Shown piece after piece: positions 44,430 through 48,319 of a stretch of 64,000 nucleotides of DNA. The DNA comes from Gottfriedia acidiceleris. GTDB taxonomy: Bacteria; Bacillota; Bacilli; Bacillales; Bacillaceae_G. The position numbers and the translations under genes were made by a program. The stretch spans positions 4,278,001-4,342,000 of the forward strand of contig NZ_CP096034.1 of NCBI RefSeq assembly GCF_023115465.1, read 5' to 3'. Below the pieces are notes generated by a model. That model was not told the origin of the DNA, made no database searches, and saw only the letters and a program-made list of their open reading frames with translations. Within the stretch, counting starts at the first letter, position 1, and each line of letters starts with the position of its first letter.

Positions 44430-46166
44430 TTATACTAGCTTTAAACCATTTGTAATAAGATTCTTTAAAGAATCCTCTTTTCTTAATGCTTCCAATTCAG
44501 CTTTAAGTGGCTCAACAATTTGCTCTAATTTAGCATTAACTGTTGCAATTTCAAGTAATTCTAAACGTAATAACCAATCACTTTGGTGTTCACGATTAAG
44601 CTCATTATGCACAGCAATTAATTTAGAAATACAGTCATCACAGAATGTATTCTTTTCTCTAATTACTCTAACTTCTTTATATAATTTTTCTAATTCAGTT
44701 AATGGGGCTGGTGTTTCCATTACGAACTCTACTTCTTTAATTGAATCACTAAAGTAAGAAGTTGGGTCAGCTGCACCAGGGTATGCTGATTCAACTCGAG
44801 AACCAACTGCCATATCAAAAGTTCCCCACTCTTTTTTGAATAATTCTTTTCCTTCGTAAGTAACAGTGCAGTCTTCAAATGAGATTAATGCAACTTTGTC
44901 TTCATTCTTAATAATATTCACAACTCTACCGGAAGCGCTTACATTGCTTAAGAATTCTAAATCAACAAAGTTCCCTACGACAATACCTAAATTTTTAAGT
45001 GCAGCATCGTCACATTCTTCTAATTCTATATTTCCTTTTAGAAGTCCAATAGGTGTACCAAATCCTTTAGCATGGTAGTCTTTTCCGTGACCTTCTAATT
45101 GCTTATTATTTATTGAAAGTGCTGTTTCGCCAGTTGTATTAACGTAAATTGCTTCACCGTTTTCATCTTTTAAGATTGCATGAACAATACCAGTTACACT
45201 TAATCCAGAATTTAATTCAAATGTAGCAACGCTTTTCGATTTAAGAGCTTTATCTAAGCTTTCTGTACCGCCTACACGGAATGCCATAGTGCTCGCTAAT
45301 TCTTCAGCACCTTGCATTAATTCATCAAAATCTTTGCATACGAATAATTGTGCTTGCATTTCAGTTATATTTTTCGGTTGTAATGTAGAAGCTTCAATAG
45401 AAAAAGGAAGTCTTTCAACTGCATCTGTAAAGCAATGTGTGCTTTCACCTACTGATGATAATAAACCAGCACCGTAAATTTTTGGATTATCTAATTCACC
45501 AATTAGACCATATTCAACTGTTCTCCAGAATACGCGTGAAATTTTTTCAGCTTCTGAAATTCCAACTATTGCTTTTTGTCTTTCTTCAACTAATTTTTGT
45601 GCGGCAGCTTTTTCTTCAGGTGTCGATTTTGGATCTTCCATTACAATCGTTAAATTTCTAACTGCTTCAAATAATTCTTGTTTTTCTTTTGTAGCAAATG
45701 CTTTTGCACCAATTGAACCAATTTTTTGTACGTATTCTCTAAATACAGGATCAAAAAGAATAGGCGCGTGTCCTGCAGCTTCATGAATAATATCTGGAGC
45801 AGGTGTATATTCTATATTCGTGATTTGTCTAATTTCAGTTGCGATTGGTAAAATACCATTTGCTAAAAGTTCAAAAAATGCAGCGCCTGGAATTAATCCA
45901 TTTACGATTCCTGCTCCCCAACCAATTTTTGAAAGACACTCGTTCATTTCAGCTACGTTTGGAATTTTTTCCGTTTCAATTCCTGACATCTTAAGTCCAT
46001 CGACAAATGCAGAATGTGCTCTATCTTTTAATGCATGATGATTTTGTCTCATTACATAGCGCCATACAGCATGATCAATTGGCGTGTAAAGATCATAATT
46101 TTGTTCCGATAAGTATTGCTTCAAATGAGGTGGTATTATTTTTGTTTCAAAAGCTGCTTCTTTCAT
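44430..46166 (-). CDS. phhA: Aromatic amino acid (phenylalanine) hydroxylase, long form
   Basis: A 578-aa protein. The N-terminal about 270 residues hold a tetrahydropterin-dependent aromatic amino acid hydroxylase domain with iron ligands His128 and His133 (PDIIHEAAGHAPI) and Glu218 (FWRTVEYGL). Typical bacterial PhhA is about 260-300 aa. The C-terminal about 300 residues (from about residue 300) are extra, look beta-rich then helical, and hold a CDDC pair near the end. Two tandem tyrosine-type T-boxes precede the gene, which supports a role in making tyrosine from phenylalanine. No pterin-recycling enzyme is adjacent. Confidence 0.9.
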   Translation of the reverse strand: MKEAAFETKIIPPHLKQYLSEQNYDLYTPIDHAVWRYVMRQNHHALKDRAHSAFVDGLKMSGIETEKIPNVAEMNECLSKIGWGAGIVNGLIPGAAFFELLANGILPIATEIRQITNIEYTPAPDIIHEAAGHAPILFDPVFREYVQKIGSIGAKAFATKEKQELFEAVRNLTIVMEDPKSTPEEKAAAQKLVEERQKAIVGISEAEKISRVFWRTVEYGLIGELDNPKIYGAGLLSSVGESTHCFTDAVERLPFSIEASTLQPKNITEMQAQLFVCKDFDELMQGAEELASTMAFRVGGTESLDKALKSKSVATFELNSGLSVTGIVHAILKDENGEAIYVNTTGETALSINNKQLEGHGKDYHAKGFGTPIGLLKGNIELEECDDAALKNLGIVVGNFVDLEFLSNVSASGRVVNIIKNEDKVALISFEDCTVTYEGKELFKKEWGTFDMAVGSRVESAYPGAADPTSYFSDSIKEVEFVMETPAPLTELEKLYKEVRVIREKNTFCDDCISKLIAVHNELNREHQSDWLLRLELLEIATVNAKLEQIVEPLKAELEALRKEDSLKNLITNGLKLV

Positions 46167-46248
46167 GTCATCAATTCCCCTTTTTAAAAATTATTTCACT
46201 TAAAAATCTATTACTCTACTTTCTTAAAAATACCCGTTCTATCTATAT

Positions 46249-46284
46249 CTTGCTAAAAGCTTTTTTTGAGCATTTTTAAGCAAG
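46249..46284 (-). other. Hairpin between the Tyr-rich sORF and phhA
   Basis: On the minus strand, CTTGCTTAAAA pairs with TTTTAGCAAG with one bulge. It begins 7 nt after the sORF stop codon. No T tract follows, so it is not a simple terminator. Confidence 0.45.
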
Positions 46285-46290
46285 TTTCCA

Positions 46291-46377
46291 TCATTTAACC
46301 ATTTCTACTTTTTCCAAATTACTCCTTCTTTCTACAAAATCTTTTTTTATTCGGTATTTATAGTCGTAATCAACCAA
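46291..46377 (-). CDS. Candidate 28-aa tyrosine-rich leader peptide
   Basis: A small ORF starts at TTG (46377-46375), 8 nt after the AAAGGAG ribosome binding site, and ends with TGA at 46291. Three of residues 4-8 are Tyr (VDYDYKYR), followed by a Lys/Glu-rich tail. It lies downstream of the second tyrosine T-box and upstream of phhA on the same transcript. It could be a translated leader that senses tyrosyl-tRNA, or a chance ORF. Its length and Tyr clustering are suggestive only. Confidence 0.4.
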   Translation of the reverse strand: MVDYDYKYRIKKDFVERRSNLEKVEMVK

Positions 46378-46483
46378 GCACATCACTCCTTTCAAAGCTA
46401 AAAAAGTGTAAATTATTTTGTTCACTACATTTGTAGCTTATTCCGTCACATCTTCTATACATGCACACAGGATTTTTTCACAT

Positions 46484-46732
46484 AAAAAAATCCCTACTGT
46501 TTGCACAGTAGGGACGAACTTTAAATTCGCGGTACCACCCTAGTTATTAGCTGTTTTACTAAAACTTACTAATATCTTCATTTCATAACGGCTCTTCACC
46601 GTCTTCCCCTCACAATTCGTTTCGAAGAAGATGCTCGTGGATTGTAATTCATGTTGTTTTATGTACTGATTTGCACCAACCATCAGCTCTCTGTTACAGG
46701 GAAAACTTCACTACTTTAATTCCATTCATTGC
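46484..46732 (-). promoter_or_regulatory. T-box riboswitch 2 (tyrosine, proximal to phhA)
   Basis: On the minus strand the leader has the distal Stem I motif AGAGAGCTGATGG, a specifier region GAATTACAATCC (UAC at 46646-46644), the T-box AGGGTGGTACCGCG (46543-46530) and a terminator made of CCCTACTGT and ACAGTAGGG followed by seven Ts. Uncharged tRNA-Tyr should stabilise the antiterminator and allow phhA transcription. It is nearly identical to the upstream copy. Confidence 0.92.
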
Positions 46733-46765
46733 TCATTATTTAATTAAATTATTTTCTTAAAATAA

Positions 46766-47014
46766 AAAAGTCCCTACTGTTTGCACAGTAGGGACGAAAT
46801 AGTCTTTTTCGCGGTACCACCCTAAATTATTAGTAATAAAAACAATACTAATATCTTCATTTCATAACGGCTCTTCACCGTCTTCCCCTCACAATTCGTT
46901 TCGAGGAAGATGCTCTAGGATCGTAATTCATGTGTTCTATGTACTGGTTTGCAGCAACCACCAGCTCTCTGTTACAGGGAAAACTCCACTACTAAAATTC
47001 CTATCATTGCTTTT
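46766..47014 (-). promoter_or_regulatory. T-box riboswitch 1 (tyrosine, distal)
   Basis: The first of two tandem T-boxes. It has AGAGAGCTGGTGG in Stem I, specifier region GAATTACGATCC (UAC at 46925-46923), T-box AGGGTGGTACCGCG near 46823-46810 and a terminator stem CCCTACTGT/ACAGTAGGG followed by TTTTTT. A SigA promoter lies just upstream. Confidence 0.92.
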
Positions 47015-47033
47015 CGTGATTCAATTAATACAT

Positions 47034-47752: not shown

Positions 47753-48319
47753 ATGCAACAAGAAAGATTAAAAATGCTTATTAATTCAGCTTTATTTGCA
47801 GCAATTATTGGTATTCTATCTCAAATATCTATTCCTTTGCCCTTTTCTCCTGTTCCAATTACAGGACAAACATTAGCAATTGGCTTAGCGGCTACGATTT
47901 TAGGTAAGAAATACGGAACAATCTCGTTACTTCTTTATTTAGCACTTGGCGCAATCGGAATACCAGTTTTCGCAGGTGGTGCTGCGGGGTTTGGCGTACT
48001 ATTCGGTTCAACAGGTGGTTATTTAATTGGATTTATTCCAACTATTTTCATCATCGCTTACTATATTGAAAAAACTAAGTTCACAGTCTTAAATGCAATG
48101 ATTGCAAACACAATCGGTATGTTTGTAACGTTAGTATTTGGTACTGTGTGGTTAAAAATTGCAGCTTCTCTAAGCTGGCACGATGCGATGGCTTTCGGTT
48201 TTTATCCTTTCATTATTCTTGGATTAGTTAAAGCCTATGTAGCATCTGCATTAGGTGTTATTATTGGTAAACGTTTAGCAAAAGCTAATTTATTAAAACG
48301 TGATGAAATTTCAGCGTAG
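47753..48319 (+). CDS. bioY: Biotin transporter BioY
   Basis: A 188-aa ECF-type substrate-binding membrane protein with six hydrophobic segments. The BioY signature IPLPFSPVPITGQTLA is at about residues 26-41, and YLALGAIGIPVFAGG-GFG and GSTGGYLIGF follow. It captures biotin alone or with the EcfAA'T module encoded elsewhere. Its BirA box and the biotin-dependent carboxylase encoded at 50.8-55.6 kb are consistent with biotin need. Confidence 0.95.
   Translation: MQQERLKMLINSALFAAIIGILSQISIPLPFSPVPITGQTLAIGLAATILGKKYGTISLLLYLALGAIGIPVFAGGAAGFGVLFGSTGGYLIGFIPTIFIIAYYIEKTKFTVLNAMIANTIGMFVTLVFGTVWLKIAASLSWHDAMAFGFYPFIILGLVKAYVASALGVIIGKRLAKANLLKRDEISA

Follow-up and report, generated by a model that had tools for sequence, protein, structure and literature searches.

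The window, the 64,000-nucleotide stretch of Gottfriedia acidiceleris DNA that was analyzed, carries on its minus strand two tandem T-boxes, a short Tyr-rich leader open reading frame (ORF) and the gene phhA, whose product would make Tyr from Phe. The region contains the following features, with SD denoting a Shine-Dalgarno sequence.

46787..47016, minus strand: T-box 1 (Rfam RF00230, 139.9 bits), Tyr specifier (GAAT-TAC-G)
46507..46738, minus strand: T-box 2 (Rfam RF00230, 141.2 bits), Tyr specifier (GAAT-TAC-A)
46386..46392, minus strand: leader SD, AAAGGAG, 8 nt before the TTG start
46291..46377, minus strand: Tyr-rich leader ORF, 28 codons, product LVDYDYKYRIKKDFVERRSNLEKVEMVK
46368-46366, 46362-46360 and 46356-46354, minus strand: Tyr codons 4, 6 and 8 of the leader
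46322..46327, minus strand: internal SD, AAGGAG, leader nt 51-56, read as a former permease SD
46315..46317, minus strand: internal TTG, leader nt 61, read as a former permease start
46223..46330, minus strand: fragment of about 30 codons that is colinear with the beginning of an amino-acid permease gene, with a 17-nt block match
46249..46284, minus strand: hairpin A, CTTGCT...AGCAAG, 96.1% of cells paired, no covariation
46223..46280, minus strand: alternative hairpin B, arms 46280-46268 and 46235-46223, 99.5% of cells paired, no covariation
44430..46166, minus strand: phhA, aromatic amino acid hydroxylase (NCBIfam NF010657, 762.6 bits; PF00351)

Both window T-boxes exceed the gathering score (93) of the covariance model and have a readable specifier codon, TAC in each. 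The leader ORF begins 129 nt past T-box 2, with a TTG at position 46377, and ends with a TGA at 46293-46291. An in-frame ATG stands two codons 5′ of the TTG (46383). Because a related genome (G007) has a stop directly after this upstream ATG and an ATG precisely at the TTG position, the TTG site is the likelier start. The original prediction of a small ORF behind the second T-box, with a good ribosome-binding site and three Tyr in five codons, is thus borne out. The internal TTG opens a frame of eight codons that, in the window's genome, is in phase with the leader. The phhA gene has its own SD, AAAAAGGGG, at 46185-46177, and starts 124 nt past the leader stop, outside the leader.

Near the T-boxes, positions 47753-48319 of the window encode a small membrane protein with a weak NCBIfam folT-family match, below cut-off, which we take to be a BioY-like ECF transporter S component.

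Conservation of the leader within the Gottfriedia clade

Thirteen Gottfriedia genomes were compared. The layout described above is common to 12 of them, namely the window's and 11 others, whereas G. endophytica (G003) has another form. In all 12 clade genomes the leader start is kept, as TTG or, in G007, as ATG, and the leader contains at least two Tyr codons. The leader SD undergoes only small changes across the 12-genome alignment, and an internal SD at leader nt 48-54 followed by a TTG at nt 58-64 is likewise present in 12/12. The first Tyr codon alternates between TAC and TAT, and the codon that separates the last two Tyr positions varies freely (Lys, Val, Ile, Leu or Asn). Whole-codon indels have altered the Tyr region in G005 and G007, and the leaders of G001, G007, G010 and G012 possess two Tyr codons, not three. 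In G008 and G010 a frameshift 3′ of the Tyr codons ends the leader after 19 and 18 codons, respectively.

The leaders of G005 and G007 are 0.86 and 0.90 identical to that of the window, compared with 0.56 and 0.52 at the four-fold degenerate sites of phhA. From the leader SD to the phhA start, identity to the window (gaps left out) is 0.864-0.996, compared with 0.524-0.900 at phhA four-fold sites; being well above the latter, it indicates that the stretch is under selection. Each of the two most divergent genomes has 4 changes in the 60 sites that make up leader codons 10-28 and the stop, compared with differences at 44-48% of the four-fold sites.

Within the clade, variable insertions separate T-box 2 from the leader. 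A G+C-rich repeat of ~125 nt (CTAGTTCCAGGCGTTAGCCCCTCGAGGTC...) was found there by exact match in six of the 12 clade genomes (loci L004, L005, L006, L007, L009 and L010; two copies in G006), and diverged copies were seen by eye in G001 and G005. The repeat has no match in the window's leader (L001), and its 17-nt end piece has none across the whole window.

Tyr-rich leaders outside the clade and the rtpA precedent

Fourteen relatives carry direct Tyr-rich leaders, which lie over or just before the SD or start of the next gene (14/14): G. endophytica has three, including one on phhA, a sister genus has one, and another genus accounts for the remaining ten. The phhA gene of G. endophytica (G003) follows three Tyr T-boxes and a leader, MSDDYYDYLYEFKKILKKKRNDHNDY, that spans the phhA SD and start. 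Two G003 permease genes (PF00324) are each preceded by two T-boxes, with specifiers TAC and TAC before the leader MESDYYYLK... in one case and TTC and TTC before MESDYYFFK... in the other. A permease search with E up to 1e-195 returned five of the 397 genomes of the order (G003, G013, G031, G238 and G396), and all five have the leader. Within the genus of G031 the leader is present in 10/10 genomes, with Tyr at codons 5 and 7, the gene start at leader nt 68 and a leader/gene overlap of 38 nt throughout.

The geometry of the direct leaders is constant. In the ten leaders measured, the first Tyr is always codon 5, the gene SD starts 39-48 nt past the first Tyr codon, and the gene starts inside the leader in another frame with an overlap of 4-53 nt; the gene SD is predicted to be mostly unpaired (mean unpaired probability 0.65-0.94). 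Four further leaders have start and overlap as in their genus. T-box specifiers of the leader-bearing sets are TAC wherever readable, except for TTC at the one G. endophytica permease whose leader reads YYFF; because the available sequence ends there, L141 shows one T-box motif with no readable specifier and L142 no readable T-box. In three g17 leaders a Phe codon interrupts the Tyr codons (YFY), yet all their T-boxes are Tyr, so that codon and specifier are not matched one to one.

The stretches behind all 118 T-box matches of four genomes (G000, G003, G013 and G396) were scanned, the counts resting on match coordinates since motif-based T-box finding misses 29 of the 118. They contain 111 SD-preceded ORFs of 8-60 codons, nine starts of which have at least three Tyr in codons 2-12. 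These nine comprise five distinct leaders (eight starts) and one doubtful ORF (L259, in G013) behind a 55-bit T-box match, which is probably due to chance. Tyr-rich leaders occur behind T-boxes more often than expected by chance. A specifier regex, which misses some T-boxes (e.g. L200), called 21 T-boxes of the four genomes Tyr and 11 Phe. Eleven of the 21 Tyr T-boxes belong to leader-bearing arrays and ten stand outside such arrays without a leader, so that a Tyr T-box does not by itself entail such a leader. In the window's genome (G000:C1:858652-859154, L091), another permease gene follows tandem T-boxes with specifiers TTC then TAC and has no Tyr leader.

Farther afield, more distant permeases lack the leader: 30 permease loci have a T-box motif within 700 nt in ten cases and a Tyr leader only in the two closest. 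Likewise, 19 phhA loci of other genera (L104-L122) have a T-box motif in five and a Tyr leader in none; at these loci and in G015 T-boxes were judged by motif, by which divergent ones can be missed. In G015 (L124), two Tyr T-boxes precede a 66% identical permease and the leader is lost; the remnant, read by eye, has ACG for ATG, then EDSFIL and a stop. This looks like a leader that decayed along with its Tyr codons, a natural loss of the second layer. A second phhA of G. endophytica (L039, G003:C3:69515-71242), 73% identical, shows no T-box motif in the stretch read.

To our knowledge, RtpLP, the leader peptide of rtpA, is the sole T-box-linked leader peptide described. Transcription of B. subtilis rtpA is reported to be controlled by a Trp T-box, and rtpA is not translated once RtpLP has been translated completely (PMC2311275); the translational control is reported to operate by tRNA-dependent ribosome stalling (PMC11255114). 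The claim that no combination of T-box and leader peptide had been described is contradicted by this Trp T-box and Trp leader.

The anti-TRAP family (PF15777) served as positive control. Five of the 397 genomes, all of one genus, exceed its cut-off. Four of the five rtpA loci combine a T-box that exceeds the gathering score with a leader whose codon 5 is Trp (MEEGWWSMFNQW..., MDDGWWCITDQ, MESDWSRTN... and MESDWRRTE...), and the fifth has neither. The ends of these leaders range from 14 nt short of the rtpA start to 47 nt beyond it. As with rtpLP, an SD-preceded ORF with matching sensor codons stands between T-box and gene in the window and its 14 relatives; the window leader, however, does not reach the SD or start of phhA as the direct leaders do.

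The common plan is a T-box followed by a short leader ORF with a strong SD, acidic or small residues ahead of sensor codons that run from codon 5, and the SD of the next gene within or just past the leader. Residues 2-4 are all D/E/G/S with at least one acidic residue in 10/10 direct Tyr leaders and 4/4 rtpA leaders, compared with 0/77 background ORFs (an incomplete scan) and 0/5 window-clade variants, the window's own included. This pattern is a likeness noticed in the present analysis, not a published criterion, and it may reflect either descent or convergence. Unlike rtpA, the sensor codons here are Tyr (once Tyr/Phe) rather than Trp, there are two or three T-boxes rather than one wherever all are readable, the gene behind is an amino-acid permease or phhA rather than a regulatory protein, and the start overlapped in the window is that of a permease stub rather than of phhA. 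The likeness of the Tyr leaders to rtpA leaders with Trp at codon 5 suggests that they are probably rtpLP-type sensors recoded for Tyr.

Probable permease remnant, hairpins and alternative readings

For a 17-nt block that the clade conserves, the best of 1463-1543 positions in each of the four permease genes tested is the colinear one, with 13-15 of 17 nt matched compared with 10-12 at the next best; the four genes and the four leaders used are relatives of each other. Its offset from the SD is 87 nt in the permease genes (102 in one with a 15-nt repeat there), compared with 89-91 in the leaders. One G007 frame behind the leader reads ALARLNRTGIFKKV, compared with ALAGMIGTGIFKGS in the permease. 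Local alignment of the stretch behind the ORF with permeases gave a mixed and less clear picture: relative to dinucleotide-shuffled controls, z ranged from -0.2 to 3.9 over 20 comparisons, and those involving the G. endophytica phhA leader, four in number, were not significant. In a tree of 26 T-boxes, in which 6/23 inner branches are well supported, five window-clade phhA sets group with the G. endophytica phhA T-boxes (86/99), and this group adjoins the G. endophytica permease T-boxes. Hence a permease gene probably passed its T-boxes, leader and initial codons to phhA, a transfer that the tree allows, and the start site under the window leader is probably a stub of eight codons from the lost permease gene. 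A mini-ORF behind the leader (MMETCLKMLKK...) was rejected as a protein, as it has 13-27 codons and a frame that is not conserved.

The remnant raises the alternative that the clade leader is merely left over from the lost permease gene and has no present role for phhA. The permease-like fragment, the overlapped stub, the frameshifted leaders of G008 and G010 and the variable insertions behind T-box 2 all agree with such a relic. Against it, the start, the Tyr codons, the internal SD and the TTG are kept in 12/12 genomes, codons 10-28 and the stop are far less diverged than four-fold sites, and the G. endophytica leader overlaps phhA itself. We regard a relic as unlikely.

A translational coupler, in which the strong ribosome-binding site of the leader feeds ribosomes to the next start and the Tyr codons are incidental, would be in keeping with G013, where leader stop and gene start share the 4 nt ATGA, and with the window, where the leader stop overlaps the ATG of another mini-ORF. 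It leaves unexplained why Tyr occupies codon 5 in 14/14 direct leaders and Trp does so in 4/4 rtpA leaders; furthermore, overlaps of 38-53 nt need long backward movement, and the genes possess their own SD. Coupling is therefore improbable.

According to the original prediction, a ribosome on the leader would govern a stable hairpin behind the ORF as an attenuator or translational switch. Hairpin A does begin on the 7th nt past the leader stop, and it is predicted in 12/12 clade genomes; its stability, however, is moderate (-8.6 kcal/mol, z -1.8). G001 and G011 have each lost one outer pair, with the hairpin still folding at about -5.5 kcal/mol. Hairpin B uses the 5′ arm of hairpin A, so that the two are mutually exclusive, as a switch might have it. 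No pair of either hairpin has changed on both sides, which in this little diverged alignment is a weak test. When the whole leader was folded in the 12 genomes, the energies were ordinary (z from +0.2 to -2.3) and the covariation term was close to zero. The window leader is rich in the regulated amino acid, as in classical transcription attenuation of the trpL type, but unlike trpL it is followed by no terminator hairpin with a U-run, and with neither U-run nor covariation hairpin A was rejected as an attenuator. The phhA SD is unpaired in the predicted folds of three genomes, and where leader and gene overlap no room is left between them for such a hairpin. Thus, of the elements for which an alignment with relatives had been proposed, the start and Tyr codons are kept in 12/12 whereas the hairpin lacks compensatory change, and a role for it as attenuator or switch is very improbable.

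That the ORF encodes a functional small protein, or a peptide that arrests its own ribosome in response to free tyrosine, would account for the acidic and small residues common to the direct leaders before the Tyr block, but is barely credible given that the sequence after the block differs between genera or shifts frame and that the sensor residue (Tyr, Tyr/Phe or Trp) broadly tracks the T-box specifier.

Proposed mechanism and significance

Judging from sequence comparison, we consider it reasonably probable that tRNA-Tyr is sensed here in two layers and that the window ORF, as a leader of the rtpLP type, supplies the translational one. The parts of this arrangement are conserved, their spacing in the direct leaders is constant, and the rtpA loci have the same layout; leader translation, ribosome stalling and start-site occlusion are what we infer from them. 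In the first layer, the T-boxes would pass transcription when uncharged tRNA-Tyr is present. The second layer would be the leader, whose ribosome-binding site is strong and whose Tyr codons cluster near its start. When charged tRNA-Tyr is ample, ribosomes would traverse the leader and cover the SD and start codon of the next gene within the leader frame. When it is scarce, a ribosome would stall at the Tyr codons, bar reloading of the leader and free the start site of the next gene. Given the usual ribosome footprint, a ribosome that stalls at codons 5-7 would not extend as far as the gene SD, whereas an elongating one would have to cross it, and the spacing of the direct leaders would fit the geometry of occlusion.

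Occlusion of the rtpA type does not reach the own SD of phhA in the window. The window leader might act on phhA through the stability of the mRNA, through a succession of short ORFs or through a change of fold between hairpins A and B. The window leader is likely a Tyr sensor, with its output on phhA only a candidate. Of the idea that T-boxes and a Tyr leader together sense tRNA-Tyr charging, a conserved and probably translated leader on top of two T-boxes thus survives, and the role of the hairpin does not. A more tentative possibility is that T-box and leader constitute a recodable two-layer sensor of tRNA charging (Trp, Tyr or Tyr/Phe, broadly following the specifier) that is not confined to anti-TRAP, moved from a permease gene to phhA and in the window clade acts on a gene starting 124 nt further on in some way other than covering its start.

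Two parts of the arrangement are already known, T-box control of phhA and, from rtpA, the pairing of T-box and leader peptide. The phenylalanine hydroxylase gene of the B. cereus group is, like phhA here, behind a T-box; unlike the present loci, it is described with no mention of a leader peptide in the available excerpts of that paper (PMC2494555). A Tyr-codon leader with a T-box on phhA or on a permease gene was not found among open-licence PMC papers. A Tyr version whose geometry holds across 14 loci in three genera, and which 12 further genomes conserve ahead of phhA, would suggest that stacked transcriptional and translational tRNA sensors are a general design. The natural variants, with Tyr, Tyr/Phe or Trp codons and with the leader direct, displaced or lost, would allow the contribution of the second layer to be tested.
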